Virus record (IMG/VR): IMGVR_UViG_3300036985_000140
Location: 1 to 25,853 of that record
Length of the DNA stretch: 25,853 nt
Reading direction: 5' to 3' (one strand)
Origin: a virus
Under the pieces are notes generated by a model that saw nothing but the letters and a program-made list of their open reading frames with translations, had not been told where the DNA came from and ran no database searches. Of this stretch, positions 1,974 to 19,318 are shown piece by piece; position 1 is the first letter of the stretch; each line of letters opens with the position of its first letter. The translations under genes were made by a program, and so were the position numbers.

Positions 1974-1980
1974 ACCCAAC

Positions 1981-2010: not shown

Positions 2011-2024
2011 ACATGGAGAGCAAA

Positions 2025-2976: not shown

Positions 2977-2984
2977 GGACAATC

Positions 2985-4169
2985 ATGCCAACGATCAACC
3001 AACTACCCGTCCTAAACGTTATCTCCAGCGGAGACCAGTTACCCGTTTATTCGCCTAACAATGGGGATGCAAGGCGTACTTCTATCGGCAGTTTGCTGAC
3101 GTTTTTCCAGCAGAGTTTTGCTTCACCTACGCTGTCGGTGAATTTATATGTCCCTGGCTCTGGGTTCAACATCACTGTGCCAACACCTGTCAGCAATGAC
3201 CAATGGATGCTATTGCAACCCGCTGGAACGCTGGCAACAGGCACGATTACGCTACCTTTGAACACTGGTGTGCCTGATGGGACAACGGTGCTGATTACCA
3301 CAACGCAACAGATCACATCACTGACGATTGCACTAAATGGTGCTACTGCTATTTATGGTGGGGCAACTTCATTGGCGGCTGGCACAGCAACATCAATTCG
3401 CTTTTATCAACCAACAAATTCTTGGTATCAAATTAACGCTGAAGCAGTTTTTGCTGCTGGCGTGCAAAACTGGATGTCAACCCCATCAAGTGCTAATTTG
3501 CTTGCGGCAATGACAGATGAAACTGGAACTGGCCTATTGGTATTTAACACTAGCCCGACTTTTGTTACCCCAATTTTAGGCGTACCGACTTCTGGAACAT
3601 TAACTAATTGCACGGGGTTGCCAATTGCAACTGGTGTATCTGGTTTGGCTGGGAATATTGCAAACTTTTTAGCAACCCCATCTAGCGCAAACTTAGCAGC
3701 AGCCCTTACGGATGAGACAGGCACAGGGGCAAATGTATTTGCCAACACACCTACTTTGGTGACCCCAGTTATTGGTGCGGCTACAGGAACAAGCGTATCA
3801 ACCACTGGCAATCAAGTTATCAGCGGCACTGGTAAGCAGGGATATGCAACTGGTTCTGGTGGTGTTGTAACGCAACTGACTAGCAAAGCTACAGGCGTAA
3901 CACTAAGCAAATCCACAGGTCAAATTACATTAGACGCTGCTGCATTAGCTGCCTCGACTACCGTCAGTTTCACTTTAACCAATACGGTAATTGAAGCTGG
4001 AGACATTTTGGTGATGAACCATATCAGTGGCGGCACGGCTGGTTCATACTTGTTAAATTCTCAATCAGCCGCAGGGTCAGCAAGCATTAACGTTCGTAAT
4101 ATTTCTTTGGGTTCTTTATCTGAAGCCATTGTTATTGCTTTTGCAGTGATTAAGGCTGTGAGTGCGTAA
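2985..4169 (+). CDS. Tail fibre protein with two shaft repeats
   Basis: A 394-residue fibre-like protein. Residues 1-45 (PTINQLPVLNVISSGDQLPV and then SPNNGDARR) resemble a particle-binding leader common on phage fibres. Residues 45-160 are beta-rich. Two near-copies of one 38-residue unit follow, at about 162-199 and 227-264; each has TPSSANL, then TDETGTG, a VF.(N/A)(T/N)(S/T)PT(F/L)VTP core and ILG or VIG, a repeat common in trimeric fibre shafts. Residues 283-394 form a C-terminal module that is clearly related to the C-terminus of the fibre at 15023-15856. It sits between the gp4-like and gp10-like genes, unusual for a P22-type cluster. AAGGA precedes the ATG. Which surface receptor it binds cannot be told from sequence. 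Confidence 0.8.
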   Translation: MPTINQLPVLNVISSGDQLPVYSPNNGDARRTSIGSLLTFFQQSFASPTLSVNLYVPGSGFNITVPTPVSNDQWMLLQPAGTLATGTITLPLNTGVPDGTTVLITTTQQITSLTIALNGATAIYGGATSLAAGTATSIRFYQPTNSWYQINAEAVFAAGVQNWMSTPSSANLLAAMTDETGTGLLVFNTSPTFVTPILGVPTSGTLTNCTGLPIATGVSGLAGNIANFLATPSSANLAAALTDETGTGANVFANTPTLVTPVIGAATGTSVSTTGNQVISGTGKQGYATGSGGVVTQLTSKATGVTLSKSTGQITLDAAALAASTTVSFTLTNTVIEAGDILVMNHISGGTAGSYLLNSQSAAGSASINVRNISLGSLSEAIVIAFAVIKAVSA

Positions 4170-4345
4170 TGGCTACCAAGTCCACAGTCAATGCGGCTGG
4201 CAACTATACAAAGCCAACCATGCGGAAAGCCCTGTTTGAAAAGATAAAAGCAGGCACAAAGGGCGGCGACCCTGGTGAATGGTCAGCTAGAAAAGCACAA
4301 CTGTTGGCGGTGGAATACAAGAAAAAGGGTGGTGGCTATAAATGA
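4169..4345 (+). CDS. Basic 58-residue protein, DUF5872-like
   Basis: Starts MATKSTVNAAGNYTKPTMRK and contains GGDPGEWSARKAQLLAVEYK near its end. The YTKP...WSARKAQ...GGGY arrangement matches a small domain of unknown function seen in many phages and large DNA viruses; I believe this is DUF5872, but the number is from memory. It has 11 Lys and 2 Arg against 4 acidic residues. Its ATG overlaps the fibre stop codon (TAATG) and its stop overlaps the next ATG (ATGA), so it is embedded in a coupled string of genes. No catalytic residues stand out; nucleic-acid binding is a guess from charge. Confidence 0.75.
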   Translation: MATKSTVNAAGNYTKPTMRKALFEKIKAGTKGGDPGEWSARKAQLLAVEYKKKGGGYK

Positions 4346-4575
4346 AAGCCCCGCAAAAGTCACTGTCAGACTGGGGCAAGCAAGATTGGCGCACCAAGTC
4401 TGGAAAGCCATCGTCTGAAACTGGCGAGCGTTATCTGCCTGCCAAGGCTATCAAAGCCCTGACTGCTGCTGAGTATGCGGCAACCACACGGGCCAAGCGT
4501 GAAGCTACGAAAGCAGGAAAGCAGTTTGCCAAGCAACCTAAGAAGGTAGCCGAAAAGATTAAAGGCTTTAGATGA
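4342..4575 (+). CDS. Basic 77-residue protein of unknown function
   Basis: Contains SLSDWGKQDWRTKSGKPSSE near the N-terminus, then GERYLPAKAIKAL and a Lys/Arg-rich helical tail. By count it has 15 Lys and 5 Arg against 7 acidic residues. Proteins with the W.(T/S)QKWRTKSGKPS...RYLPAKA pattern are frequent in environmental phages and always lack an assigned function. It is coupled to both neighbours by ATGA overlaps (4342-4345 and 4572-4575). The three genes from 4169 to 4865 form one tight unit inserted between a fibre and the gp10-like gene, so they probably act together or in the same virion compartment. Confidence 0.75.
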   Translation: MKAPQKSLSDWGKQDWRTKSGKPSSETGERYLPAKAIKALTAAEYAATTRAKREATKAGKQFAKQPKKVAEKIKGFR

Positions 4576-4865
4576 AAACTCCAGCCTACGCACGCAAAGA
4601 AGGCCAGAATCCTAAAGGCGGTTTGAACGCTAAAGGTCGCGCTGCTGCCAAGGCCGAGGGCATGAATCTGAAGCCTCCAGTTAAGACTGGTGACAACCCG
4701 CGCAGAGCATCGTTCCTAGCCCGTATGGGCGGCAATCCTGGCCCTGAATACAAAGACGGTGAACCTACTCGCCTGCTTTTGAGTTTGAGGGCTTGGGGGG
4801 CTACTTCAAAAGCGGACGCGCAAGCCAAGGCAAAGAAAATATCTGCGCGAAACAAGGCGAAGTAA
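4572..4865 (+). CDS. Basic 97-residue protein, DUF6321-like
   Basis: Third member of the small basic cluster. Landmarks are YARKEGQNPKGGLNAKGR near the start, VKTGDNPRRASFLARMGG in the middle and PTRLLLSLRAWGATSKADAQ followed by AKAKKISARNKAK at the end. The combination of KEG.NP.GGLN.KGR with NPRRASFLARM and LRAWGA is a recognisable phage family of unknown function (DUF6321, number from memory). It carries about 14 Lys and 8 Arg against 7 acidic residues. The ATG overlaps the previous stop codon, and the gp10-like gene begins directly after its own stop. A role in binding DNA inside the head or during ejection is possible but unproven. Confidence 0.75.
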   Translation: MKTPAYARKEGQNPKGGLNAKGRAAAKAEGMNLKPPVKTGDNPRRASFLARMGGNPGPEYKDGEPTRLLLSLRAWGATSKADAQAKAKKISARNKAK

Positions 4866-6308
4866 ATGCAAATACCTATCCTCAACGGTATTTACGCCGA
4901 CAACACTCCAGAACTGCGAACATCGTATCCGGTGAACTTTGTGCCTGTGCCAAAACAATCAGGCATAAGTAATGGGTTTCTGCGTCCAGGTGATGGGATT
5001 GTGGCTAACGGCACAGGCCCAGGCATTGACCGTGGCGGGATTAATTGGCAAGGCAATTTGTATCGGGTTATGGGTACAAAGCTGGTAGAAATAGACAGCG
5101 CAGGCATAGTGACTACATTAGGCGATGTTGGTGGGCCGGTAACGGAATTAGTTACATTTGATTACAGTTTTGACGTGCTTGCAATTGCCTCCGGTGGGCG
5201 TTTGTATTACTGGATTCCAGTCAACACGACAGCAACATTGATATGGAATCCAACTGCCCCAATTCTGAGGCAAGTGACTGACCTCGACCTTGGCGTGGTT
5301 TTAGACTTCTGCTGGGTTGATGGTTACTTCATGACCACTGATGGAGAATCTTTGATAGTCACTGAGTTGACTAATCCAACCCAAGTCAACCCGCTAAAGT
5401 ATGGAAGTTCAGAGGTTGACCCTGACCCCGTAGTGGCTTTGTTAAAGCTAAGAAACGAGGTGTATGCGTTAAACAGGAACACCATTGAGGTATTTGACAA
5501 TGTGGGCGGTGAGTTGTTCCCATTTGCAAGGATTGATGGTGCGCAAATTCAAAAAGGCGTTATTGGTACACAAGGGTGCTGCGTCTTTATTGAGCGCATA
5601 GCATTTTTAGGCAGTGGACGCAATGAAGCGCCGAGCATTTATGTAGGCGCAGCGGCAACCACGCAAAAGATAAGCACGCAAGAGATTGACAACATCTTGT
5701 TGGAATACAACGAAGAACAATTAGCCTTGGTCAAACTAGAGGTTAGAAACGACAAAGCGCACCAGCATCTTTATGTGCATTTGCCTGACCAAACACTAGT
5801 CTATGACGCAGCAGCATCCGAGGCTTTGCAAACCCCTGTTTGGTTTACCTTGGTAAGCACTCTTAATGGTTTTGTTCAATACCGCGCACGAAATATGGTG
5901 TGGGCTTACGACAAGTGGTTAGTTGGCGACCCTCAATCAAGCAATATCGGCTATCTAGTGCAGGACACCGGACACCATTGGGGTGAGCAAGTGCGCTGGG
6001 AGTTTGGAACGTTGATTGTCTACAACGAGAGCAATGGCGCAATATTCAATCGATTGGAGTTAGTCAGCCTGACGGGTAGCATTGCCATTGGCAAGAATCC
6101 GCAGATAAGCACAAGCTACAGCGTGGACGGAAAGACTTACAGCCAAGACCGCAGCATCAGCGTTGGCACTACCGGAAGTAACAAGCGCCTGACCTGGTTC
6201 CAGCAGGGGCATATGCGGAACTGGCGCATCCAGCGATTCAGGGGCGATAGTGATGCTCACGTATCCTTTATTCGACTTGAGGCTCAGATTGAGCCACTGG
6301 CGTACTGA
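4866..6308 (+). CDS. P22 gp10-like packaged-DNA stabilisation (tail hub) protein
   Basis: Forms the ring below gp4 that plugs the head and holds tailspike and needle. Its 480 residues compare with 472 for P22 gp10. The layout follows gp10: an N-terminal YPVNFVPVPKQSGISNGFLR segment (P22 has LPVNMLATPKE... followed by GYLRSFPG), then WQGNLYRVMGTKLVEIDSAG as in the P22 YRVCGGKLYKGES region. Residues 140-300 carry beta-propeller-like strands with FCWVDGYFMTTDGESLIVTE and IEVFDNVGG, and there is a VYDAAASEALQTPVWF segment equivalent to the P22 VYDASSSQNGPQW. The gene begins immediately after the small basic cluster and ends in a TGATG overlap with the needle gene, as expected for the tail machine genes. 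Confidence 0.9.
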   Translation: MQIPILNGIYADNTPELRTSYPVNFVPVPKQSGISNGFLRPGDGIVANGTGPGIDRGGINWQGNLYRVMGTKLVEIDSAGIVTTLGDVGGPVTELVTFDYSFDVLAIASGGRLYYWIPVNTTATLIWNPTAPILRQVTDLDLGVVLDFCWVDGYFMTTDGESLIVTELTNPTQVNPLKYGSSEVDPDPVVALLKLRNEVYALNRNTIEVFDNVGGELFPFARIDGAQIQKGVIGTQGCCVFIERIAFLGSGRNEAPSIYVGAAATTQKISTQEIDNILLEYNEEQLALVKLEVRNDKAHQHLYVHLPDQTLVYDAAASEALQTPVWFTLVSTLNGFVQYRARNMVWAYDKWLVGDPQSSNIGYLVQDTGHHWGEQVRWEFGTLIVYNESNGAIFNRLELVSLTGSIAIGKNPQISTSYSVDGKTYSQDRSISVGTTGSNKRLTWFQQGHMRNWRIQRFRGDSDAHVSFIRLEAQIEPLAY

Positions 6309-7177
6309 TGGCAACCGCACCTATCTCCCGCAAGCTGAATTTAACCCGCGACCAGCTTGCGACATTCTTGACCGACCAGCAGCAGATTCGGCAGTTTGAA
6401 TTATTGTTTTCCACAGTTGACCAACTACAAGTTATTGTAGGATCTGACTTTGAGTTTCAGGCAGACAATGCTGCGGCTGCCGCAAATGAAGCATTAGCAC
6501 AGATCATTGCGTTGGCGCAGGAAACGGGAGTCAATGATGCGGCATTAGGAGCAAAAGCACAGGATGCACTCGATAGGATTGCATTACTGGCACAAGAAAC
6601 TGCGGTGACTGTGGCATTGGCTGAAAGCAAGGCAAATCAGGCACTGGCATTGGTAGACAAGCTGAATAAAGCGGTGGAGGGTTTGCAGATGACCCCGCCA
6701 CCACGGGAGTTCAAACGAGCAAGATATGGGTCATTTTACGACACTACCACCCAAACAGCAGCAGTTATCAACACTGCCACTGCCATCACATTCAACACCA
6801 CCGACCTGAGCAATGGGGTATTTATTGGCTCGCCCACCTCTCGCATCATTGTGGACAGCGAAGGCATTTACAACTTTGACACATCGTTTCAGTTGGACAA
6901 GATCAGTGGCGGCACGGCAGAGTTTTATTTTTGGTTCAGGCTTAATGGCGTGGATGTAACAGACAGCGCAAGCCAGATCAGGGTTCAGGGCAACAACGCT
7001 GAGATTTTCTCGTCGCTAAATTACTTTTTTGACCTCAAGGCCAACGATTATGTCGAGCTGATGTTTTCGGTCACCAGCCTCAGCGTTGAGGTTGCCGCAT
7101 TTGCAGCCTCTGCCCCACATCCAGGTATTCCGTCCATAATTCTCACAGTCAACAACAACATCGGAGGTGTTCAATGA
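6308..7177 (+). CDS. Tail needle (gp26-like) with jelly-roll knob
   Basis: The needle closes the bottom of the tail hub and is ejected first. Residues 1-40 form an N-terminal plug-like segment (RKLNLTRDQLATFLTDQQQI). Residues 55-125 are Ala/Leu-rich with repeating ANEALAQI, AQDALDRI and ANQALALV units at heptad-like spacing, typical of a trimeric coiled coil. After a PPPRE hinge (residues 130-134), residues 138-289 look like a C1q/TNF-type jelly roll: RYGSFYDTTTQTAAVINTAT, then GIYNFDTSFQLDKISGGTAE, then YFWFRLNG and a final strand. Sf6 phage carries such a knob on its needle, while P22 does not. The position right after the gp10-like gene (TGATG overlap) supports the assignment. Sequence similarity to P22 gp26 itself is not evident; the call rests on architecture and order. 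Confidence 0.75.
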   Translation: MATAPISRKLNLTRDQLATFLTDQQQIRQFELLFSTVDQLQVIVGSDFEFQADNAAAAANEALAQIIALAQETGVNDAALGAKAQDALDRIALLAQETAVTVALAESKANQALALVDKLNKAVEGLQMTPPPREFKRARYGSFYDTTTQTAAVINTATAITFNTTDLSNGVFIGSPTSRIIVDSEGIYNFDTSFQLDKISGGTAEFYFWFRLNGVDVTDSASQIRVQGNNAEIFSSLNYFFDLKANDYVELMFSVTSLSVEVAAFAASAPHPGIPSIILTVNNNIGGVQ

Positions 7178-7509
7178 CAGTCACAGTAAAGGTGCTTATC
7201 CCTGCAAAACAGGCAGAAAACGCACAGACCACCCAATATACCGCAACCAATGTCAAGGCGATTATTGACAAGTTCACGGTGACAAACACCAGCGCAAACA
7301 ATGTGACTTTCAGTTGCAACTTGGTCACTGTCTCTGGGTCAGCAGGGGCATCCAACCTGATTATTGATGCGCGAACCGTTGTACCTGATGAGACCTACAC
7401 TTGCCCCGAATTGGTTGGTCAGGCGCTCGATGTTGGTGGTTTTATATCTACGCTGGCAGGGACGGCAACATCCTTGACCATTCGTGCATCAGGCCGAGAA
7501 ATTTCATAA
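7174..7509 (+). CDS. Hypothetical beta-rich virion protein
   Basis: This 111-residue protein begins MTVTVKVLIPAKQAENAQTT and reads as a single beta sandwich with alternating Val/Thr strands; there are no membrane or catalytic signatures. Its ATG overlaps the needle stop codon (ATGA) and a GGAGGTG sequence lies just before it. Strand pattern and length recall small capsid- or needle-associated adaptor proteins, and it is comparable in size and style to the protein at 16223-16576, though the two do not obviously align. Function unknown; likely a minor structural protein, given that both neighbours are tail or ejection genes. Confidence 0.6.
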   Translation: MTVTVKVLIPAKQAENAQTTQYTATNVKAIIDKFTVTNTSANNVTFSCNLVTVSGSAGASNLIIDARTVVPDETYTCPELVGQALDVGGFISTLAGTATSLTIRASGREIS

Positions 7510-7519
7510 GGAGAACAGC

Positions 7520-7918
7520 ATGGACAAATTTATGATGATGCCCAAGGGATTTATGGGCCTGCCGATGGATGAGGGTTTCATTACCACAGCAGAAAACAAA
7601 AAGAACTATGCCATTGCGGTGCAGGACTGGAACTACGGCCCTGAAGTGCCAACGAACGAGCCAGGCGCAAACAAAGAGTTTTACGTGGGGTTGGCCGAGG
7701 CTATGCAGTGCGATGAGAAGGACGCAAGGCGCAAGCATTGTTCAAACTGTGAGTATTACGACAACAGCTTTATGACCCAAGTCAGGATTGAGCGCATCCC
7801 GCTGGCAACCTATGACAAGGGAGCAGGCTTTAGGGGCCACTGCGAAAAGCTGAACTTTATCTGCAACGATATGCGCGTCTGCCAAGCCTGGGAAGAACGC
7901 GAATCCGAGATGGATTGA
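7520..7918 (+). CDS. Hypothetical cysteine-cluster protein
   Basis: The ATG at 7520 is preferred over an in-frame start at 7484 because AAGGAG (7508-7513) lies six bases upstream and the longer version would overlap the previous gene. The 132-residue product has a Met-rich start (MDKFMMMPKGFMGLPMDEGF) and a C-terminal cysteine set: C64, C74, C77, C108, C115 and C121, with HCSNC and GHCEKLNFIC. This could bind a zinc ion or an iron-sulfur cluster. The spacing is not that of a classical zinc ribbon, and only loosely recalls high-potential iron-sulfur proteins. It lies upstream of the ejection genes. No function can be assigned. Confidence 0.65.
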   Translation: MDKFMMMPKGFMGLPMDEGFITTAENKKNYAIAVQDWNYGPEVPTNEPGANKEFYVGLAEAMQCDEKDARRKHCSNCEYYDNSFMTQVRIERIPLATYDKGAGFRGHCEKLNFICNDMRVCQAWEERESEMD

Positions 7919-7993
7919 CGAAATGCCAAAATGTGCGAAAATCAATCCGCTGAGTTACGGCATCCAGCGGCCTTCCCCATTAAGGAGTTGTGC
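7919..7993 (+). promoter_or_regulatory. Leader with stem-loop and strong ribosome site before 7994
   Basis: CCGCTG (7947-7952) pairs with CAGCGG (7965-7970) around a 12-base loop. A C-run follows instead of a T-run, so this is not a classic terminator. AAGGAG at 7982-7987 lies six bases before the ATG at 7994. It may set the expression level of the ejection gene block. Confidence 0.4.
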
Positions 7994-8437
7994 ATGACTG
8001 ATTGGCTCAAAGAAAACCTGCAAAGGGTTTTTATGCTGCCTGCGCCAGTCGTGGAATGGCTCATCATGGTTTACGATGCCATTCAGGTGTTTGACGATAT
8101 TGCCGATGGCGATACGGTAGAGCGCAAAGACCTGAATGCGACCATCTGGAACACACTGGTGGGCATCCACCAAAACCAGTTCTTTATAACCAATAGCCAC
8201 CACCTTGTGCCTTTGCTGGCAACAGCAATCATGAAGTGGCAAGCCTCAGACCAAGCAGAGCGTGCAGGCCAAGCCGATGCTAAATCATTTGTTTGGCGTG
8301 CAGGCTATTACGACCTGATTCTGATGGCCGTATCTATTACGCATGGCCCAGGCTTTGCCACAAAGAATGCTCACTTGGTCATGGAGTTATATGGCGAAAA
8401 ATTTGAAGATTACATGAAGGAGTTTGGCAATGCCTGA
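7994..8437 (+). CDS. Hypothetical helical protein before the ejection genes
   Basis: The ATG at 7994 is chosen because of AAGGAG six bases upstream; an earlier in-frame ATG at 7931 would have no such site and would span the stem-loop. The 147-residue product (MTDWLKENLQRVFMLPAPVV...) is mostly helical, with a hydrophobic stretch around PVVEWLIMVYDAIQVF and an acidic C-terminus ending FEDYMKEFGNA. In P22 the gene before gp7 is gp14, a short assembly factor for the ejection proteins. This gene holds the same place, but I see no direct sequence resemblance, so gp14-like function is inferred only from order. Its 3' end overlaps the next ATG. Confidence 0.55.
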   Translation: MTDWLKENLQRVFMLPAPVVEWLIMVYDAIQVFDDIADGDTVERKDLNATIWNTLVGIHQNQFFITNSHHLVPLLATAIMKWQASDQAERAGQADAKSFVWRAGYYDLILMAVSITHGPGFATKNAHLVMELYGEKFEDYMKEFGNA

Positions 8438-9074
8438 TCCAATCACAGCCCTAGTCGTCGGTGGAAGCCAACTTGTCGGAAGTTCACTGCAAGCCAAGGC
8501 AGCAAGCGGTGCTGCCGAAACGCAAGGCGCAGCCGCACAAGCTGGCATTGATGAACAGCGCAGGCAGTTTGATGCCATGCAAGCCTTGCTCAAGCCTTAC
8601 ACCGAGGCAGGAGTGCCAGCACTTGAAGCGCAGCAGGCATTCTTGGGTCTACGAGGCCCAGAAGCAGAGGCTGCGGCTATCGAGCGCATTCGTGGTGGTG
8701 AGACATTCCAAGCACTTGCAGGACAGGGCGAGGAAGCATTACTTCAGCGTGCATCGGCCACTGGTGGCCTGCGTGGTGGGAATATTCAAGGCGCATTAGC
8801 CCAATTCCGGCCACAGTTACTTTCAAGTCTCATTGAGCAGCAATATGGGCGATTAGGTGGGATGACTTCGTTGGGACAACGTTCGGCTGCCGGTGTTGGC
8901 GAAGCAGGAATGGCAACTGGAACTAATATTGGTAATCTACTATCTCAACAAGGCGCGGCTAGTGCAGGAGGTCAACTTGGTGAGGCTAAAGCCTATGGTC
9001 AATTGTTTAACCTACCTGCACAGTTTATCGGTGCGCAAATAGGCGCAGGAAAAACTCCAGGCTTTGGCTTTTGA
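8430..9074 (+). CDS. P22 gp7-like DNA ejection protein
   Basis: Start at ATG 8430, with AAGGAG (8417-8422) seven bases upstream; a TTG two codons earlier would be too close to that site. The 214-residue product is Ala/Gly/Gln-rich and helical: an N-terminal small-residue helix (ITALVVGGSQLVGSSLQAKA), a central Gln/Glu-rich helix with GIDEQRRQFDAMQALLKPY, then RGPEAEAAAIERIRGGETF and a Gly/Ala-rich C-terminus with SLIEQQYGRLGG and LLSQQGAASAGGQL. This pattern is common among gp7-type internal virion proteins, which leave the head with the DNA and help build the channel through the cell envelope. Two larger ejection candidates follow, in the same order 7-20-16 as in P22. Confidence 0.75.
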   Translation: MPDPITALVVGGSQLVGSSLQAKAASGAAETQGAAAQAGIDEQRRQFDAMQALLKPYTEAGVPALEAQQAFLGLRGPEAEAAAIERIRGGETFQALAGQGEEALLQRASATGGLRGGNIQGALAQFRPQLLSSLIEQQYGRLGGMTSLGQRSAAGVGEAGMATGTNIGNLLSQQGAASAGGQLGEAKAYGQLFNLPAQFIGAQIGAGKTPGFGF

Positions 9075-9085
9075 TTGGATAAAAC

Positions 9086-10525
9086 ATGGCAACAATTAAC
9101 CCATTCCAAGGCCCAATCAATTACTCAGTTGATGTGCAAAGCCCATTTGAGGCGGCACTTGGTGGCTTTAAACTTGGCGCTGCTGGAGCAGAAATACAAG
9201 CGCAACAGAAAAAAAATGAGCTTGAGATTAAAGCCGCACAGCAGGCACAACAACGGCAGACTGAACTGGCAGACCTGTTTAAAAATCCAAACGCAACAAG
9301 TGCAGACTATGCACGTGTAGTTGCTTTTTTACCCAAAGACCAAGCCACAATTGTTACGCAGGGTTTTGAAAGAAAAACTAAAGAGCAACAAGATAATGAT
9401 TTGCGAATGGGTGGTCAAGTTTATTCTGCCATCAAGTCAGGGCAGCCTAATATTGCAATACAAATGCTGACAGACCAAGCCGCTGCATTACGCAATAGTG
9501 GTCGTGAAAATGAAGCCAAAGCAGCAGAAGCATCTGCTCAAGCAATTGAGTTAAATCCAACAATGGCACAAGCAACCGTTGGTCTATATATGGCAACTTT
9601 GCCTGGTGGTACTGGGTTTCTTGAGGCAGCAGATAAAGCACTTGCAACGATTAGAGCAGAGGCTAAAGCGCCATCTGAATTGAAAACTTCTGTTGCAAAT
9701 GCAGACAAGGCAGTATCGGATGCAGACAAAGCCTTGTCAGATGCTATTACAGCCCAGGAAACTGCTAGAAATGCACCAGAGAAAGCAAAAGCGGATGCAG
9801 CAAAAGCCACGGCAGACGCACTAAAAGCAAAGGCAGACGCACAAAAAGCAGAGGTTGATGCCAAATATGCAGAAGAGATCACACTTGCAGACCTTAAAAA
9901 GAAAGCCGCTGACCTTGGATTAACAAGTGCTCAAACTGGCTCCGCATTAGCTCAGACTAGAAAACTTGGTGTTGAGACCAAAAAAGCGGTACTTGAATTA
10001 GAAGCATATAAAGCATCGGGTGGAATTGACCCAGCTAAAGCATTTGACCAAGAAGAAAAACTGCGTAAAGAATTCCAACTTCGCAGTAAAGTTTATGGAG
10101 AATTAGGAACTACTTTTTCTAACATCAAATCATCTGCTAATGCAAAAACTGGGCCAGGAGACATTGCTTTAATTACCGGATTCATGAAAATGCTTGACCC
10201 TGGTTCGGTGGTGCGCGAGACTGAATTTGCTACAGCACGAGACACCGCTGGCCTATATACAAGACTTGAAAACAGTCTGAAAAAGGCAGAAAGCGGTCAA
10301 TTCTTGCAGCCAAATCAGCGCGAAGAATTTGTCAATCTGGCTAAACAATATCTTGATTCCGCACAAAAGAAAGCAGGCGACGACAAGAAGGCGCTTAGCG
10401 TGGTGGTAAAGAATTACAAACTTAATCCTGAAAACGTCTTTGGCCCAGAGGTAACTGGTGGTGGTGGTCGTGGTGTAGTAAATCCTCCAACGCCTGGACA
10501 GATTAATGTAACGGTGGACTATTGA
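9086..10525 (+). CDS. gp20-like DNA ejection protein, coiled coil
   Basis: The 479-residue length is close to that of P22 gp20 (471). Residues 1-60 carry FKLGAAGAEIQAQQKKNELE, a helix seen at the N-terminus of many internal virion proteins. About residues 190-290 are an unbroken Ala/Lys/Asp-rich helix with repeating ADKA and DALKAKADAQ motifs, likely a long coiled coil. The end is Gly-rich (VTGGGGRGVVNPPTPG). Sequence identity to gp20 cannot be judged by eye; the assignment rests on length, composition and position between the gp7-like and gp16-like genes. It presumably travels from the head into the periplasm during infection. The Shine-Dalgarno site before ATG 9086 is weak. Confidence 0.65.
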   Translation: MATINPFQGPINYSVDVQSPFEAALGGFKLGAAGAEIQAQQKKNELEIKAAQQAQQRQTELADLFKNPNATSADYARVVAFLPKDQATIVTQGFERKTKEQQDNDLRMGGQVYSAIKSGQPNIAIQMLTDQAAALRNSGRENEAKAAEASAQAIELNPTMAQATVGLYMATLPGGTGFLEAADKALATIRAEAKAPSELKTSVANADKAVSDADKALSDAITAQETARNAPEKAKADAAKATADALKAKADAQKAEVDAKYAEEITLADLKKKAADLGLTSAQTGSALAQTRKLGVETKKAVLELEAYKASGGIDPAKAFDQEEKLRKEFQLRSKVYGELGTTFSNIKSSANAKTGPGDIALITGFMKMLDPGSVVRETEFATARDTAGLYTRLENSLKKAESGQFLQPNQREEFVNLAKQYLDSAQKKAGDDKKALSVVVKNYKLNPENVFGPEVTGGGGRGVVNPPTPGQINVTVDY

Positions 10526-10526
10526 T

Positions 10527-12902
10527 ATGCCCTACTCCATCACAACAAAAGATGGCATCACCATCAATAACATCCCAGACGATGTTGTTCCTGATTCGCC
10601 TGATCTAAAAGCGCGGGTTGCGGCAATTCGTGCGGGTGGTGGTGCAGCAGCCCTTGAGACTCCAGCACAACCACCAAAGATGGGATTCTTGGAGAGCATT
10701 GCAGAATCAATCACTGGCCGACAACGCGCAACACCAGAGACCCAAGCATTGCCCGAATGGGTGAATATGCCAGAACTCAATCAATTGAGTGTGGCTGGTT
10801 TCAAAACAGCACTCGGCACGCTAATGAGCGACCCAAAAGAAACAGTGCAAGTTTTGCAGGCTAACTTCCCTGGCGTTCAGGTTCGACAAGACGCAAAAGG
10901 TAATTACCTAATGCGTTCGTCCCTTGACCAAAAAGAGTACGCAATTACTCCAGGCCTGACATTTGGCGATATTCCTCGGGTTGGTTCAGCAATTCAGGCA
11001 TTTGGCCCTGCTGGTGCAGCAAGAACCATTGCTGGCGCTATAGCCGGTGCTGGCTTAACTCAAGCGGCTATTGAGACAAGTCAAGCACTAACAGGCGGTG
11101 AATTCAACCCTAAAGAAGTTGCACTTGCAGCAGCGACAGGCCCAGCAGGACAGATTTTGCAGCGCGTAGTCCCTCCGGCTGCCCAGGCAGTCAAGCGTAT
11201 GACAGGCCCAGGACGCGCACCAACGCCACCAGCAGGCACATCAATGGGTACAGCAATGGCCCCAGAAGCGCCTCCCACAATGGCAATGCCAGAGGTTGCA
11301 CCAGAAATTCCAGTCGTACCACCAATTGTTCCAGCAGTTACTGCGGTGGCTGAAGAGGAAGTAGGAAAGCTGGTAAAGCAAGCATCAGGCACAGGCTTTG
11401 GTTCGGCTGGCGCACGTGACCGGCTGGCAGACCTTGCTCAAGTCAATGTGGGAGCCAAAGAAGCAGCAGACCGGCTTGGCATTCAATTGCCTGCCGATGT
11501 GTTTAGCGACAATCCACAAGTCCGCGCAGCCGCTGGCCTGACTCGATCAGCCGCAGGCACTGAGGCAGAGGCCGCATGGCGCAACACCGTCACTCAGGCA
11601 GTGGATAAGGCAGATGATGTAATCAAGCAATTCGATGCCACCTTTGTTGAAGGTGCAGTTGCACCTGGAGTAGTCTCGCAAAAGATTAAAGACTCACTTA
11701 TCCAGCAACAAAAAGCATTAGTTCAAGACGCAAAAGTTTTGTACGATGCAGTTGATTTAAAAGTGCCAGAGCAAACACTGGTAACTTTTCCTGCATTAAA
11801 AGAAAAGTTGGCAGAAATCACATCAAGACTAGGTGCAGAAGGTGTTGAAAAAAATACAACACTCAAAATGCTTAACAAAATGGTCAGTGATGCCGATGCT
11901 GGAAAAGTACCTTATGGTCGATTAAAAGAGGAAAAAACTCTGATTGGTGATTCAATTAAGGGTGTGCAAAATGATTATTCAAAAAGCACATCACAAGGTA
12001 GATTAAAAGAAATTTATGGCGCATTGGCAAAAGATCAGCTTGACAATGTTGAAAAGCTAGCAGATGCAGAGGTGCGCCAACAATTACGAAGTGCTAACCT
12101 ATTGACGGCAAAAGAAAAAGCACTCGGCAAGCGCATTGTGAATGCGTTTGGTGAGGATATTGAAGGAAGTTTAGGTTCTAAATTAAGGTCAGCAATTATC
12201 AGTGGCGGTAAAGGTGATACAGGCGACTTCAATCGTTTGTTGAAAGTAGTGCCAGAGGAATTTCGCAAAGAGACGCTGGCAACGGCATTGGCATCAGCTA
12301 CAAGGTCGGCCAGGGGCGCAGAAAAGGGAGGATTCGGATTCTCCGAGTTTGCTGATCTATACCCCAAGCTGCGTGCCAATCCACCAGTCTACAAAACCAT
12401 CGTGGACACGCTAGGCAAAGATTCTGCGGATGTACTGCGCGACCTATATGTGGTTTCTAAGCGCGTCACAGAGGCCAGGGCAAATGTCCTGACCACCGGC
12501 AAGGCAAACCAAGCATTGCTGCAAGGTATGCAGGCCGAAAGCCTAATAGGTAAGGTAATGGAAAGCACACTGTCCAAAGGCGCATTAACTGGTGCAGCAG
12601 CAATGGGTGGCCCTATTGCAGCCGCAGCCACATCAATAATCACCGGAGCTATGACCCAAGGAAACAAGGATTCACTAAAAGCAGCGGGGAAATTGTTTGC
12701 TGATGAAGGATTCCAAAAACTTGCAATTGAAGCTGCAACAAAAGGAACACCAAGCGAAGCTAGTATTCGTCGAGCAGCCATGTCACAATCTTTTCAGAAT
12801 TTTGCAGATGCAGTTAAACTACCGAAAGCATTGGACGCAAGAATTCAATGGTTGCAGGCAGCAACCCAATCCGAGCGCCAATTCGACCAGGAGAATCAAT
12901 AA
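10527..12902 (+). CDS. Large gp16-like DNA ejection protein
   Basis: Third and largest internal protein, 791 residues (P22 gp16 has 609). It begins MPYSITTKDGITINNIPDDV, a start seen on many phage internal proteins. Residues 150-200 hold hydrophobic Ala/Gly-rich helices (GPAGAARTIAGAIAGAGLTQ) that could insert into membrane, residues 230-285 are a Pro/Ala-rich linker, and residues 290-640 are helical with NVGAKEAADRLGIQLPADVF and FDQ-type coils. Around 680-720 a second small-residue hydrophobic patch appears (SKGALTGAAAMGGPIAAAAT). I see no lysozyme or transglycosylase catalytic signature. It begins one base after the previous stop codon, consistent with a coupled ejection operon. Confidence 0.65.
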   Translation: MPYSITTKDGITINNIPDDVVPDSPDLKARVAAIRAGGGAAALETPAQPPKMGFLESIAESITGRQRATPETQALPEWVNMPELNQLSVAGFKTALGTLMSDPKETVQVLQANFPGVQVRQDAKGNYLMRSSLDQKEYAITPGLTFGDIPRVGSAIQAFGPAGAARTIAGAIAGAGLTQAAIETSQALTGGEFNPKEVALAAATGPAGQILQRVVPPAAQAVKRMTGPGRAPTPPAGTSMGTAMAPEAPPTMAMPEVAPEIPVVPPIVPAVTAVAEEEVGKLVKQASGTGFGSAGARDRLADLAQVNVGAKEAADRLGIQLPADVFSDNPQVRAAAGLTRSAAGTEAEAAWRNTVTQAVDKADDVIKQFDATFVEGAVAPGVVSQKIKDSLIQQQKALVQDAKVLYDAVDLKVPEQTLVTFPALKEKLAEITSRLGAEGVEKNTTLKMLNKMVSDADAGKVPYGRLKEEKTLIGDSIKGVQNDYSKSTSQGRLKEIYGALAKDQLDNVEKLADAEVRQQLRSANLLTAKEKALGKRIVNAFGEDIEGSLGSKLRSAIISGGKGDTGDFNRLLKVVPEEFRKETLATALASATRSARGAEKGGFGFSEFADLYPKLRANPPVYKTIVDTLGKDSADVLRDLYVVSKRVTEARANVLTTGKANQALLQGMQAESLIGKVMESTLSKGALTGAAAMGGPIAAAATSIITGAMTQGNKDSLKAAGKLFADEGFQKLAIEAATKGTPSEASIRRAAMSQSFQNFADAVKLPKALDARIQWLQAATQSERQFDQENQ

Positions 12903-15020
12903 ATGTCCGCACTCTCAATTCAAGTCCCATTTCCGGTCTTTCAAGACCGTGATGGACAGCCGCTGGACAATGGCTATGTCTGGATTGGCACTGCCAACCT
13001 AAACCCACAGACCAACCCAGTAGCGACCTTCTATGACGCTGCGCTGACCATTCCAGCAGCACAGCCTCTACGCACGCTCAATGGCTACATTTCACGCGCA
13101 GGAACACCGGCTCAAATCTTTGTTGACGGTGTGAATTTCAGCATCTTGGTGCAGGACAGTAAAGGGACAATGGTCTATAGTTTCCCAGATGGAACTGGTC
13201 TCAGCCCAAATGCTGCCGGTATCATTTATGACCCTGCTGGAACTGGTGCTGTACCAACCACGGTGCAAACTAAGTTGCGTGAGTTTGTAAGCGTTAAAGA
13301 CTTTGGTGCTGTTGGTAACGGTGTTGCAAATGATAGCACTGCTGTCTCTAATGCGTTTAATGCTTCAAATGGAATACGAGTTTTATTTCCATCTGGTGTT
13401 TATAAATTAAATAGTGCAGTTGCTGCTCCTGTAAATTCATCGGCTTACATGGAATACGGTGCTTCTTTTGCTACAAATAAACCGACAAACGTAGACTACA
13501 TTTGGGAATATAAAAACTCAGTTCCTGTTATAGCATTGGCAGCACAAACGCAACATCTTTTTGAACAAAATTCTTACACGATAGATGGTGTCGGTGGATA
13601 TTGGCCTAGCGGCCCCGTTGGTTCATACTTTGGTATCTCTAAAGAATTTGATTCAACTTATGGAAATGGCACAGACAGCCCATACGCAGCCCAATGGCTT
13701 TATGCAGTAAATAACAACTCTACCGCTACCGTTGTTTCTCAAATGAGCATAGCCAGGGCCATAACAAATAATGATTCTGTTTTTGGTCTAAACCCAATCG
13801 TAACAAATGAATCAGGGACAACTGGTGCTAAATTAGTTGGCATGGAGATTGATGTTGAATCGTCTGCTGGAAGCACAATAAGCACTGCGTCTGCGGGTCT
13901 TTACATCAATGTTTTTAACTCAACAAATTCTGGCGCGGTAATGCAAACGGCTGGGCTTGTTGGCGGTAATTTTTCTGATGGCATCGTAATGAACGGCATT
14001 GCGTCAACTGGCGCAGCATTTGCAGACCAAGCCGGTTTGTCTTGCGGTTGGGGTTTAGCTTTAACAAACGGTACTTATGCTCAAGCAGCTATTGAACTTG
14101 GCCCACAAAGAAATCTATCTATTAAAAGCAATGTATCAACTACTAATAACATCTACGCTAACGCCAGTGACAATTTCTTTTTTGACCTTGGCAAAGACAT
14201 TTATTTTTCAAGCCCATCAAGCACACAAGGTGCTCGAATTGCAACTATTCGCAACGTGAATGGAGTAGAAAGCGCAATTTTTAACGTAGTCAGCACTTAT
14301 GGGGCAAGTAGTGCAAATACCGCCGTTGGTGTGGGCACAGATTCGGTCACTTCACGGTCAATCAACGCTGGCGGCACAATCAATGCAAGCGGCGCTGACT
14401 ATGCCGAGTATGAGTACAAAAACAATACCTGTGGTGCGGTCTTAAAAGGCCAAATTATTGGCTTTGATGCGGATGGTAAAGTAACGGACAAGTACGATAG
14501 CGCCGTTTCTTTTGGTGTTAAAACAACCAACCCAAACATAGTTGGTGGCGATACTTGGTTTGAACAAGTTGGCGATGCGCCAGTTGCACCTGAGTACACA
14601 CCGCTTGACATTGAACGCCCAGCGCACCCAAGCCAAACTATCCGCAAATCAAAAGAGCAAGGCGATGCGGAACTTGCAGAATTTAAACAAAAAACCGCCG
14701 AGTACGAAAAGACTTTGAGCGAACATAAAGCGCAGTGGGAGAATACCGTACTTGCATCACATCAAAGTGCCATGAATGTTTACCAAGCCCAACTAGAAAT
14801 GGTCAGGGCTACAGTTGACCGCATATCCTATTGCGGGAAAGTTCCGGTCAATGTAACCGGCGCGGCGGTGGGTGAGTACATTATTCCAATAAAAGACGGT
14901 GATGGCATCAAAGGCGTTTGCGTGGCAAACCCAACTTTTGAGCAATACCGAAATTCAGTAGGTCAGGTGCGAAAAATCCTAAGTGATGGTCGCGCTGAAA
15001 TAGTTGTAAAGGCAATTTAA
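12903..15020 (+). CDS. Tailspike with P22-type head-binding domain and G2/IMC-like C-terminus
   Basis: 705-residue receptor-binding protein. Residues 1-105 match the P22 tailspike head-binding domain: PFPVFQDRDGQPLDNGYVWI near the start, a turn containing NPVATFYD, and QPLRTLNGYISRAGTPAQIF, comparable to the P22 [20 protein letters not shown]. Residues 129-145 (VSVKDFGAVGNGVANDS) are the usual opening of a pectate-lyase-like right-handed beta helix, which continues to about 480. From residue 497 (GADYAEYEY) the sequence resembles the Peptidase_G2/intramolecular chaperone family, which trimerises fibres and cuts itself off, with GFDADGKV, SFGVKTTNPNIVGGDTW and a C-terminal GKVPVNVTGAAVGEYIIP. 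A Lys/Glu/Gln-rich coiled coil (about 580-640) is inserted. AGGAGA precedes the ATG. The glycan substrate cannot be told. Confidence 0.85.
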   Translation: MSALSIQVPFPVFQDRDGQPLDNGYVWIGTANLNPQTNPVATFYDAALTIPAAQPLRTLNGYISRAGTPAQIFVDGVNFSILVQDSKGTMVYSFPDGTGLSPNAAGIIYDPAGTGAVPTTVQTKLREFVSVKDFGAVGNGVANDSTAVSNAFNASNGIRVLFPSGVYKLNSAVAAPVNSSAYMEYGASFATNKPTNVDYIWEYKNSVPVIALAAQTQHLFEQNSYTIDGVGGYWPSGPVGSYFGISKEFDSTYGNGTDSPYAAQWLYAVNNNSTATVVSQMSIARAITNNDSVFGLNPIVTNESGTTGAKLVGMEIDVESSAGSTISTASAGLYINVFNSTNSGAVMQTAGLVGGNFSDGIVMNGIASTGAAFADQAGLSCGWGLALTNGTYAQAAIELGPQRNLSIKSNVSTTNNIYANASDNFFFDLGKDIYFSSPSSTQGARIATIRNVNGVESAIFNVVSTYGASSANTAVGVGTDSVTSRSINAGGTINASGADYAEYEYKNNTCGAVLKGQIIGFDADGKVTDKYDSAVSFGVKTTNPNIVGGDTWFEQVGDAPVAPEYTPLDIERPAHPSQTIRKSKEQGDAELAEFKQKTAEYEKTLSEHKAQWENTVLASHQSAMNVYQAQLEMVRATVDRISYCGKVPVNVTGAAVGEYIIPIKDGDGIKGVCVANPTFEQYRNSVGQVRKILSDGRAEIVVKAI

Positions 15021-15022
15021 TT

Positions 15023-15856
15023 ATGGCAGATACCAAAATCTCGGCGCTTACTTCCGCAACAACCCCGTTAGCGGGTACGGAAGTTTTGCCCATTGTTCAA
15101 TCAAGTACCACGGTAAAAGTTTCCGTTGCTAACTTAACCGCAGGCCGAGCGGTAAGTATGTTGTCTGGGACAATTTCATCCGGCAATTTAGAGTTTAGCA
15201 CCACTGGACAACGTATTACTGGTGACTTTAATAACGGCACTGTTACTAACCGTGTCTTATTTCAAAATAGCACAGTTAATGACAACACCATTGTTGGTGC
15301 GCTGCCTAATGGGACTGCTACTATTTCTGGATTTGTTGCCTATGCGTTGTCTACTGCTGCGAATAGTTCTACATTAGATTTACTTGTCAGGAATGATGCG
15401 GCAAATGCTGTTCAGATACGATCTAATCGTCAAGGAACAGGGACGTTTTTGCCGATGCAATTTTTTACTAGCGGCGGTAAAAAATTTGAGATTGACACTA
15501 GCGGAAATGCAACTGTAACAACCGCAGCCGGTTTGGGCTACAGCACAGGCGCTGGTGGTACTGTTACACAGGCAACAAGCCGAACAACCGGCGTAACTTT
15601 AAACAAGCCTACTGGCGCTATCACCATGTTTTCTGACTTGGGGTCTGCTGTAGCGGCAACATTTACAGTAACTAATAGCTTGGTTGCGGCGACTGATACC
15701 ATCCTTTTGAGCCAACAATCAGGAACAAATCTTTATGTTTTGTTGGTTACGGCGGTCGCGGCGGGTAGCTTTAACATCACGTTTTACACAACTGGCGGCG
15801 TTGCAACTGATGCGCCGGTAATCAACTTTTCGCTAATCAAAGGAGCAACATCATGA
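15023..15856 (+). CDS. Second tail fibre protein sharing a C-terminal module
   Basis: 277 residues, starting two bases after the tailspike stop. Residues 1-45 (MADTKISALTSATTPLAGTE, then VLPIVQSSTTVKVSVANL) are a particle-attachment leader found on many phage fibres. Residues 60-165 are beta-rich. Residues 170-277 (GLGYSTGAGGTVTQATS, TTGVTLNKPTG, then alternating strands) align by eye with residues 283-394 of the fibre at 2985-4169 (GKQGYATGSGGVVTQLTS, ATGVTLSKSTG). The shared part is probably a trimeric tip or folding unit. Placement next to the tailspike suggests that both assemble at the tail. The ribosome site is weak (AAGG about ten bases upstream), so coupling to the tailspike gene is likely. 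Confidence 0.75.
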   Translation: MADTKISALTSATTPLAGTEVLPIVQSSTTVKVSVANLTAGRAVSMLSGTISSGNLEFSTTGQRITGDFNNGTVTNRVLFQNSTVNDNTIVGALPNGTATISGFVAYALSTAANSSTLDLLVRNDAANAVQIRSNRQGTGTFLPMQFFTSGGKKFEIDTSGNATVTTAAGLGYSTGAGGTVTQATSRTTGVTLNKPTGAITMFSDLGSAVAATFTVTNSLVAATDTILLSQQSGTNLYVLLVTAVAAGSFNITFYTTGGVATDAPVINFSLIKGATS

Positions 15857-17978: not shown

Positions 17979-18206
17979 TTATGGTTTTGGACAATCTTCT
18001 GGAACATTAACGGCAACATAAACCGGCGTGACCGCTTTCTTAGCGGGAATTATCCAACGGTCTATGTAAATGTCTGGCATAGCATCTAAAGACTTTTTGA
18101 TTGAATTAGGACTAATGTTTATGATGTTGCAAATTTGGCTTTTTGTAAGGCCATCTTCATGCGCCAACAAAGTTTCACGAATTAGTTGATGTCTTGATTT
18201 TCTCAT
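17979..18206 (-). CDS. Small winged-helix-like DNA-binding protein
   Basis: I start this gene at ATG 18206, whose ATGA overlaps the upstream stop codon as in its neighbours; an in-frame ATG at 18230 would add eight residues but has no better ribosome site. The 75-residue product starts MRKSRHQLIRETLLAHEDGL, then TKSQICNIINISPNSIKKSL and a strand pair near DIYIDRWI. That order (helix, recognition helix, wing) suits a winged helix, so DNA binding is likely. It is last in the leftward early operon. A target cannot be inferred. Confidence 0.7.
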   Translation of the reverse strand: MRKSRHQLIRETLLAHEDGLTKSQICNIINISPNSIKKSLDAMPDIYIDRWIIPAKKAVTPVYVAVNVPEDCPKP

Positions 18207-18430
18207 GTATTTTTCTGTGGTGGTGTGCATGTATGAATGTGGTCAGCAGCGCCTAATCGTTTTCCGCAGCGTTCGCAAAAGTTGCGCTCAAGTTTGTACT
18301 TTTTCTTAGCGTCAAAGTAGCCAGACTGGTATGCAATCAGCAGCGCATTGCCATCTTCTTTGTAGACCTGTGTGTCGTCATCGTCTAGCTTGTCCTGCGC
18401 CGCTGCCTTTTTGCTTTGATAGCCTGTCAT
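18203..18430 (-). CDS. 75-residue zinc-binding protein
   Basis: Start at ATG 18430; an earlier TTG frame start adds only three residues. AGGAG lies about nine bases upstream, inside the preceding microgene, with which it overlaps by ATGA. The product has MTGYQSKKAAAQDKLDDDDT at the N-terminus, a helical middle and a C-terminal metal site: C52, C55, H64/H66 and C68 (FCERCGKRL then HIHTC). Similar CERCGKRL...HTC endings are frequent in phage early proteins. The first five codons are identical to those of the upstream microgene. Function unknown; protein or nucleic-acid interaction is likely. Confidence 0.7.
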   Translation of the reverse strand: MTGYQSKKAAAQDKLDDDDTQVYKEDGNALLIAYQSGYFDAKKKYKLERNFCERCGKRLGAADHIHTCTPPQKNT

Positions 18431-18510
18431 TTTCCGCAACTCCTACATTTAGTTAATATCGTGAACACCGGTCGTTTGCAATACACGCAATAAGATTGAT
18501 AGCCTGTCAT
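18427..18510 (-). CDS. 27-residue zinc-ribbon microprotein
   Basis: Encodes MTGYQSYCVYCKRPVFTILT followed by KCRSCGK and a TGA stop. Four cysteines in a CxxC-x10-CxxC arrangement (C8, C11, C22, C25) are exactly those of a minimal zinc ribbon. The ATG overlaps the stop of the upstream gene (18507-18510) and its TGA overlaps the next ATG (18427-18430), with AAGGGG about six bases upstream of its start. These overlaps and the metal motif argue that it is translated despite its size. It shares the codons for MTGYQ with its downstream neighbour, suggesting partial duplication. Confidence 0.65.
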   Translation of the reverse strand: MTGYQSYCVYCKRPVFTILTKCRSCGK

Positions 18511-18749
18511 GTTGTTCCCCTTGCTCGGATGGCGGCTGCACAGTCAGTGCAAGTTACATCCCACATAGACTTGTCGGTGTCTGTGTAGATGTCTGGCGCT
18601 AACAAGTCATCACACACCTTTGCACACGCCTCACGCTCATGTGCTTCTACCAAGTCGGCAAAGCGTTCAAGCTCACCCCAAGCCCAATCGATACCGCCGG
18701 GCCTTGCAGGATCGCCATTGGCTTGCTTTGCTAGTTCAATGATGTTCAT
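18507..18749 (-). CDS. Hypothetical Ea22-like early protein
   Basis: 80 residues. The core, ELERFADLVEAHEREACAKV followed by a short acidic region and a C-terminal CAAAIRARG, is a very common signature of small phage proteins loosely grouped with the lambda Ea22 type. The function is unknown. GGGG precedes the ATG by seven bases (minus strand), and its stop overlaps the microprotein start. Part of the leftward string of coupled accessory genes. Confidence 0.75.
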   Translation of the reverse strand: MNIIELAKQANGDPARPGGIDWAWGELERFADLVEAHEREACAKVCDDLLAPDIYTDTDKSMWDVTCTDCAAAIRARGTT

Positions 18750-18761: not shown

Positions 18762-18947
18762 TTAATATGATGAGGACATATCGTCATCATCGCTACTGAA
18801 TTGATACGGGCTTTTATCATTGTTTGACAAGTTCCATGTCTTACGAATGTTGGCATAATATTCTTCCCGTTCTTGTTCACGGCGAATTCGTTGTCGATAT
18901 TCTTCATCACTCATATCACCATCATAATAATCATCTTCAATATTCAT
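18762..18947 (-). CDS. Hypothetical acidic 61-residue protein
   Basis: Strongly charged, rich in Asp, Glu, Tyr and Ser: MNIEDDYYDGDMSDEEYRQR at the start and a SSDDDDMSSSY end. Residues 13-40 probably form one helix (SDEEYRQRIRREQEREEYYA). A GGAG lies nine bases before the ATG. Very acidic early phage proteins sometimes mimic DNA or bind host DNA-binding proteins, but nothing here supports this beyond composition. The upstream open frame ends across its ATG. Confidence 0.6.
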   Translation of the reverse strand: MNIEDDYYDGDMSDEEYRQRIRREQEREEYYANIRKTWNLSNNDKSPYQFSSDDDDMSSSY

Positions 18948-19097
18948 ACTTCAACTCCAAAATGTTTTAGGATATTCTGCTCACAATGAACAGGTATGTA
19001 CGTTACTGAGTCTGGAACCCAATCGGTCATAAACAACACCTTCGCCACCAAAGTATGCTCCAGATTTAACCATCAGTTTATCAATTCGTTCGTTCAT
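18944..19097 (-). pseudogene. Microgene, probably frameshifted (MNERI-type start, ILKHFGVE-type end)
   Basis: ATG 19097 overlaps the upstream TGA (TGATG) and has GGGGG upstream. As read, it encodes 38 residues (MNERIDKLMVKSGAYFGGEG then 18 more) and stops at 18981-18983. In the frame one base further on, an open stretch from 19072 reads MTDWVPDSVTYIPVHCEQNI then LKHFGVEV and stops at 18944-18946, overlapping the next ATG. MNER... starts and ...ILKHFGVE ends belong together in a familiar class of small phage proteins, so one gene of about 50 residues with a one-base shift near 19030-19036 is likely. The cause could be mutation, sequencing error or programmed frameshifting. If no frameshift exists, the gene is 18981-19097. 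Confidence 0.5.
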
Positions 19098-19318
19098 CAC
19101 TTCCCCCAAATAATTAAACAAACAATCCACACACCAAGCATTAAAGTCAACATGGTAAGCAAGGCTTTAAACGTGTCGGCAAGGTCGTCTATCGGGTCAC
19201 CTAACTGCGCGTCCTTGTAGCCATTGCAATAGGCGTCGTTGATTTCTTTAAGGCGCTGCTTGCGTACAGGGCAGTCTTTGCCTTGGTCGCATTGACCATT
19301 TGCGTTACAGCAGTTCAT
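19097..19318 (-). CDS. Small membrane protein with Cys-rich N-terminus
   Basis: 73 residues. The N-terminus carries MNCCNANGQCDQGKDCPVRK, a cysteine set (C3, C4, C10, C16) often seen in short phage proteins; a Cys at 31 follows. Residues 50-71 form a transmembrane helix (ALLTMLTLMLGVWIVCLIIW) ending in GK. The ATG overlaps the stop codon of the upstream gene (ATGA), and its own stop overlaps the microgene start. Function unknown; the Cys cluster on a membrane anchor suggests metal or redox sensitivity only as speculation. Confidence 0.7.
   Translation of the reverse strand: MNCCNANGQCDQGKDCPVRKQRLKEINDAYCNGYKDAQLGDPIDDLADTFKALLTMLTLMLGVWIVCLIIWGK

Follow-up and report, generated by a model that had tools for sequence, protein, structure and literature searches.

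A Conserved 27-Residue Cys4 Microprotein Gene in an ATGA-Linked Chain of Phage Accessory Genes, and the Leader It Shares with Its Neighbour

1. Introduction

Two very small neighbouring genes on a stretch of viral DNA begin with the same 15 bases, and the question arises whether the shorter gene was made from the start of the longer one or whether the likeness has a wider source. The DNA concerned, here called the window, is one strand of 25,853 nt (IMG/VR record IMGVR_UViG_3300036985_000140). An earlier note on it had described genes of 27 and 75 residues with identical starts and had considered it plausible that the microprotein arose by partial tandem duplication or strand slippage. The analysis presented here leads to another answer; quite probably, the 27-residue frame is a selected gene for a zinc-knuckle microprotein and belongs to a chain of genes joined by ATGA overlaps, the leader it has in common with its neighbour having come about by shuffling and not by slippage. 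What appears new is the microprotein family, probably a zinc-binding one, while the gene chain is of a kind already known.

2. The Locus

Structural genes, among them those for the major head protein and the head closure protein Hc3, occupy positions 60–15856 (+) of the window; Hc3 is of the P22 type, and its nearest record is that of an uncultured Manatee Spring phage (64%). The small genes form a run on the minus strand, with genes for DUF932, ERF, and YqaJ proteins upstream; the ERF and YqaJ genes belong to the same same-strand run as the microgene. The latter (MTGYQSYCVYCKRPVFTILTKCRSCGK) spans 18427–18510 (−) and encodes 27 residues with a pair of Cys4 knuckles, CxxC-x10-CxxC, the cysteine codons lying at 18489–18487 (C8), 18480–18478 (C11), 18447–18445 (C22), and 18438–18436 (C25) (all −). 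Upstream lies an 80-aa gene (18507–18749, −) of the EREACAKVCD...CAAAIRARGTT family, which overlaps the microgene by ATGA and carries in its last codons, those for ARG, the Shine-Dalgarno-like AAGGGG of the microgene (18517–18522, −).

Downstream lies the 75-aa gene (18203–18430, −), which consists of a 15-codon leader, MTGYQSKKAAAQDKL, an acidic middle, and a C-terminal CxxC-x10-HxC module; its ATG is at 18430 and its stop at 18203, the ORF list beginning at an upstream TTG (78 aa). A Shine-Dalgarno-like AGGAG is found 9 nt before this ATG (18440–18444, −), within the C-R-S-C codons of the microgene. The next gene, MRKSRHQL... (17979–18206, −), overlaps the 75-aa gene, again by ATGA; an earlier ATG exists in its frame at 18230, where the ORF list starts it, profile searches gave weak, sub-threshold helix-turn-helix matches, and relatives occur in 21 of 57 microgene loci. 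Each junction from the 80-aa gene through the 27-aa and 75-aa genes to the gene starting at 18206 is an ATGA, so the overlaps of stop and start codons that the earlier note had reported at both genes are indeed present.

Other small genes of the same run encode 61 residues, very acidic and rich in tyrosine (18762–18947, −), 38 residues ending in HTCSL (18981–19097, −), and 73 residues that include a Cys cluster, MNCCNANGQCDQGKDCPVRKQR, at the N-terminus and a hydrophobic stretch at the C-terminus (19097–19318, −). Profile searches, two for the 61-aa and 73-aa proteins and one for the 38-aa protein, gave no significant family match for any of these three; relatives of the 73-aa gene are present in 17 of 57 microgene loci.

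3. Conservation of and Selection on the Microgene

Relatives of the microgene were collected with the peptide pattern YCVYCKRPVxxTI, which is blind to the second CxxC, the stop codon, and the overlap. It retrieved 57 viral stretches, which together with the window make 58 (48 distinct contexts; metagenomic contigs, partly redundant). Fetched by the first CxxC alone, all 58 have the second CxxC at an unchanged distance and end in TGA, 57 have a core of exactly 21 codons (the sole exception being L143), and 57 overlap a following ATG by ATGA. Two further patterns, for which the overlap was required, gave 56 and 61 stretches. A deduplicated set of 58 distinct contexts, window included, was selected on all four cysteines; here, 5 of 57 ATGA overlaps open frames of at most 30 codons, namely, of 5 codons in L151, L153, and L178, of 30 in L175, and of 13 in L145, where the frame runs off the end of the stretch.

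The family ranges from 24 to 32 residues, with 27 in the window. By construction, the four-Cys pattern is present in all 35 distinct peptides, as they were selected on it; none contains Asp or Glu, and each has 4–6 Lys or Arg, four positions being partly fixed by selection of the set.

Over codons 1–15 of 46 distinct cores, pN was 0.059 and pS 0.687, giving a pN/pS of 0.086 (bootstrap 0.070–0.105); the same codons read in the other two frames gave 2.8 and 1.3. These are pairwise counts made without a tree, and four rows of a GTG-started branch were left out. Since the fetching patterns fix some residues, the calculation was repeated for the codons left free by one of the overlap-requiring patterns, which yielded 0.126 (0.148 for codons 9–15), with a residual bias in that some of these codons are fixed by the YCVYCKRPVxxTI pattern. 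All 15 third positions vary among codons 1–15, as compared to five first and five second positions. The 27-residue frame, whose integrity in relatives the earlier note had made the touchstone, is thus conserved and undisrupted (second CxxC in 58/58; pN/pS 0.09), and judged by these figures it is a real, selected phage gene that dozens of uncultured phages have preserved. With it, a strongly conserved family of 24–32 residues joins the smallest proteins maintained by selection in phages.

A divergent branch (L143, L151, L153, and L175) starts with GTG, reads KGYQSYC, and has CSSC followed by RK as its second knuckle; the preceding gene ends in EMRGVM. L143 is without an ATGA overlap, and the others open a short frame there.

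4. Junctions and Ribosome Binding

The AGGAG for the 75-aa gene is part of TGT AGG AGT TGC GGA AAA TGA, the stretch that encodes the second knuckle. A Shine-Dalgarno-like motif is found ahead of the second gene in 51 of 54 microgene relatives, compared with 747 of 5611 random ATGs (13%) of the same loci; AGGAG itself is present in 42 of the 46 distinct cores, and 64 of the 1152 synonymous spellings of CRSCGK contain it. Relatives of the 80-aa gene behave alike: in a sample of 108 contexts, to which one search contributed its best 80 loci and from which matches stopping before residue 70 or lying at the end of a stretch are omitted, a −4 overlap is present in 104 and ATGA in 101, and a Shine-Dalgarno-like motif occurs in 101, as opposed to 14% at random ATGs; behind these 108 contexts, 84 distinct hexapeptides begin the next gene. 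In the window, the Shine-Dalgarno motifs of the 27-aa and 75-aa genes (AAGGGG, AGGAG) lie inside the previous gene, whereas the 75-aa gene itself ends in CAGAAAAATACATGA, with no clear motif for the next gene. The commonest end of genes of its mosaic family (Section 6) is ...CAAGGAGAAGAACACATGA, which gives the peptide KEKNT in one frame, and 98 of 147 such genes end in ATGA. In L282, L138, L032, and L324, the gene behind a member of the EREACAKVC...AIRARG family starts with MNIIELAK or nearly so.

Quite probably, the 27-aa gene encodes a basic Cys4 zinc-knuckle peptide and is one of a series of accessory genes joined by ATGA overlaps, in which ribosomes finishing one gene would re-start on the next via the Shine-Dalgarno motif in the last codons of the previous one; the AGGAG in the second-knuckle codons would serve the start of the 75-aa gene. 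The ATGA/Shine-Dalgarno junctions would then be natural seams for gene swapping, and the microgene a small portable unit, placed behind several kinds of gene and ahead of many. Genes of several kinds are indeed found upstream of it, and 52 distinct proteins are encoded downstream.

Alternatively, the microgene might be a cis element only, that is, a translated spacer furnishing a Shine-Dalgarno motif and an ATGA start, with a peptide devoid of function. Nucleotide conservation is strongest in the motif-bearing codons 16–21 (TGT AGG AGT TGC GGA AAA; pS 0.185 versus 0.687 in codons 1–15), the element stands directly ahead of another ATG in 57 of 58 stretches, and what follows varies freely (the 52 proteins just mentioned), all of which would suit a spacer. 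What makes this reading quite unlikely is that amino acids are kept while silent sites drift in codons 1–15 (pN/pS 0.09–0.15, free codons included), that the second CxxC is present in 58/58 though it was not selected for, and that mosaic genes lacking a microgene (see below) have similar junctions.

5. The Nature of the Microprotein

Zinc binding by the microprotein is probable from its knuckle pattern. Against Zn_ribbon_3 (PF13248) the 27-aa peptide scored 13.2 bits (E 0.065), below the gathering cut-off of 27 bits; 11 of 16 members of the family match this profile at E ≤10 (best E 0.0021), likewise below the cut-off, and the sub-threshold Pfam matches of the microgene peptides are mostly to zinc-binding domains. 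The peptide had no match in PHROGs or NCBIfam and none at cut-off in Pfam. Searches of INPHARED phages (tblastn, E ≤10; a weak test with so short a query) and of GTDB genomes (two exact patterns) gave no match, and no sequence in the PDB matched with an E under 2.7. AlphaFold2 predicts two short strands, with modest scores (pLDDT 72.5, pTM 0.37), for the 32-aa variant found in L162; in a structure search of the PDB with the microprotein model, all E values were at least 6.4, and none of 10 chains reached a Z of 2. In a literature search covering mostly open-access journals, no description of the peptide or of the MTGYxSK mosaic family was found.

Basic zinc-knuckle peptides are often nucleic-acid binders, and the charge and the knuckles of the microprotein together suggest that it, too, may bind nucleic acid. 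Having, within few residues, two CxxC knuckles that together could hold one zinc, it resembles Zn_ribbon_3, similar short zinc ribbons, and the C(P)xCG micro-proteins of Haloferax (PMC10716476); it differs in that the family stays below the Pfam cut-off, has 24–32 residues, and was found here in viral contigs only.

In phage Mu, the com gene precedes the gene on which Com acts. Com, a 62-aa Cys4 finger reported in PMC6483171 to activate translation of mom, can by analogy be regarded as the nearest precedent in style: it is, like the microprotein, a small Cys4 protein encoded just before another gene, although the microgene products, at 24–32 residues, are much shorter. A peptide of this kind might bind its own mRNA near the stop–start junction and control the next gene, and a small basic Cys4 protein whose gene lies immediately ahead of and overlaps another would fit such a Com-like role. 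The Com family, which presumably has a Pfam profile, is absent from the 13 Pfam families matched by the 16 members at E ≤10, a range in which the HMMER filters drop most weak matches. Further, the downstream genes are wholly different, so that there is no fixed target outside the junction, and one RNA fold, made for the window only, demonstrated no regulatory hairpin. Com-like regulation is rather unlikely for these reasons.

More speculatively, and with a small chance of being right, the microgene could be a portable "coupler" of ~80 bp: its basic peptide would bind the junction RNA or the ribosome and tune re-initiation, it could be placed before any accessory gene, its knuckle codons would double as Shine-Dalgarno motif, and 15-bp repeats would allow its insertion and removal by recombination. 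If this were true, the flanking 15-bp repeats would permit gain or loss of the microgene without harm to the next gene.

6. The 75-aa Gene and Its Mosaic Family

The earlier note had ascribed Cys-based metal sites to both proteins. This applies in full to the 27-aa protein; the site of the 75-aa protein (C52-x2-C55-x10-H66-x-C68) is Cys-based as well, but follows a CCHC pattern with a histidine instead of four cysteines. A Cys-based metal site is likely in both. Among the best 80 loci fetched by six peptide seeds, one of which covers the CxxC, 72 retain CxxC..HxC; the spacing is 10 in 61, 7 in 10, and 9 in 1. A structure model of the 75-aa protein (pLDDT 56.1) was too poor for use.

Its relatives form a mosaic. 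Compared in pairs, 105 genes with the 15-aa leader are on average 78% identical over nt 1–45 and 30% (ungapped) over nt 46–135. Since genes entered this set by their leader motif, only silent choices count as independent evidence; ACA, for instance, is shared by 97 and GGC by 90 of the 105. Of 410 pairs whose leaders are at least 93% identical, 350 show an ungapped identity under 45% over the 90 nt that follow; in other words, conserved border DNA is followed by unrelated contents. The interchangeable downstream parts include DDDDTQVY, AYQSGYYDGKKA, QPAQEPVAW, TPPQR, RPWVGLT, and the CxxC..HxC end. Counts for this MTGYxSK family are samples, among the matches listed. On the evidence of these shared pieces of sequence, the 75-aa gene is a member of a mosaic family composed of a 15-codon leader with interchangeable middles and ends.

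7. Why the Neighbours Share Their First Codons

The window contains two exact copies of ATGACAGGCTATCAA and no more, at 18496–18510 (−) and 18416–18430 (−), and both, the first 15 bases of the 27-aa and of the 75-aa gene, sit exactly on the start codons; the identical starts described by the earlier note are thus confirmed. The second copy is common leader DNA of the MTGYxSK family. Allowing up to three mismatches, there are three sites, the third at 21940 inside another ORF; 100 shuffles had a mean of 0.73 and none reached three, by which a chance origin of the repeat was ruled out. Aligned with each other, the two proteins share MTGYQS (6/6, E 0.003) and are otherwise weakly alignable (E 0.053). 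That weaker match, to residues 31–57 of the 75-aa protein, was considered as homology and is taken as coincidence, because the spacing there differs in most relatives of the 75-aa protein.

Slippage or partial tandem duplication of the start of the 75-aa gene, as a recent source of the microprotein, is suggested at first sight by the exact 15-base direct repeat at neighbouring starts. The frequency of the leader tells against it: ATGACAGGCTATCAA starts 47 of 134 MTG[YF]xSK genes that have no microgene and 10 of 23 that follow one (Fisher p 0.49; among the matches listed), so that over all loci the 15-mer is not clearly enriched behind the microgene. This comparison is partly biased, some loci having been obtained with a leader pattern biased towards Gln or Glu at codon 5. 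Without these loci, ATGACAGGCTATCAA starts 13 of 47 other family genes (summed over four sets, with no significance test), and the somewhat larger gap to the 10/23 speaks for slippage to that extent; among loci fetched via the 80-aa gene alone, it starts 3 of 8. Of 22 tandem pairs with MTG[YF] starts, only 6 have identical 15-mers. The repeat is about what would be expected from a common leader pool, and no recent duplication is needed.

The microgene itself points the same way. Its core is conserved behind other N-termini, which comprise MTGYQSYC, MTGYQYYC, MTGQQYYC, MTSYQSYC, MTNYQSYC, MTSYC, MTTYYC, MTNQYRC, and MTQYLC, besides the GTG-started KGYQSYC and, in L162, MKVYLAWNHQAYC, and it is found next to other neighbours; many of the cores starting with MTSYC, MTTYYC, or MTNQYRC precede unrelated genes. 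Beyond the leader, no clear similarity of the two proteins is seen. In a sibling locus (L058), 82% identical to the window over the recombination-gene stretch and 75% over the end of the second gene and beyond, the microgene is absent and another small gene precedes the MTGYQSKK gene.

Two observations lend slippage some colour. Of 24 contexts in which the microgene is of a GYQ or GQQ form, 17 have an MTG[YF] gene next, as against 0 of 21 with an MTSYC form, counts uncorrected for relatedness, from which it appears that the two leaders may be linked, by exchange or by descent; an older link between the leader of the microgene and that of the second gene is accordingly possible by either route. 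Moreover, at least 13 of the first 15 bases are shared in 22 of 1386 distinct ATGA-joined pairs, where 200 shuffles had a mean of 10 and a largest value of 20; the excess is not unbiased, as some of the loci came from searches directed at the microgene pair itself. Start sharing is not confined to MTGY genes and was also seen in MNIIE–MNIIE, MTRDD–MTRDD, MNRDD, and MNRED pairs, MNIIE accounting for three adjacent pairs (L001, L006, L249). With the leader statistics and the microgenes having other N-termini both disfavouring it, a recent duplication or slippage is very improbable, and the proposal of the earlier note that such an event made the microprotein is not borne out. The shared first codons are best read, from the distribution of the leader, as a family leader and not as a local slippage scar; under the preferred reading, this common leader would have been brought to both starts by shuffling.

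8. Comparison with Known Systems

ATGA chains have been described for the nin-region genes of lambdoid phages (Kroger and Hobom 1982, cited in PMC8022706). Small, tightly packed accessory genes in ATGA overlaps, with neighbours varying among relatives, are what the present locus has in common with that region, and such overlaps were found at four window genes, in 57 of 58 microgene stretches, and in 101 of 108 contexts of the upstream family; here, ERF and YqaJ genes lie close to the chain, and the head closure protein of the phage is of the P22 type. It differs from the nin region in that last codons carry strongly kept Shine-Dalgarno motifs and in having a zinc-knuckle microgene and leader-sharing mosaic genes. 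Among the proteins scanned, none matched the nin region.

The boundary-sequence model of phage mosaicism, as summarised in PMC3233612, offers a second parallel, in which short conserved border sequences flank unrelated gene contents. Unlike in that model, the border here is protein-coding on both sides, consisting of C-terminal codons that bear the Shine-Dalgarno motif and of the 15-codon leader. As for the agent, phage recombinases of the Rad52-like kind, with an Erf among the enzymes assayed, act on short homology (PMC3945230); the presence of ERF and YqaJ genes in the phage of the window makes exchange at gene seams plausible, and swapping there might be the work of these recombination genes.

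The locus illustrates how coding sequence itself can spell out the seams of a mosaic gene chain. Codons kept at the ends and starts of genes that are otherwise unrelated would be a trace of ribosome binding and probably of exchange sites, and such sharing is a trap if it is read as local duplication.

Small genes with CxxC and an acidic tail, FGDEEKPQ, were also seen under different starts: the MTGYYCVICGK gene of L013 and the MTDKEVMKEGYYCVICG genes of L140–L142, the latter adjoining the microgene directly downstream, seemingly represent one module behind different leaders.
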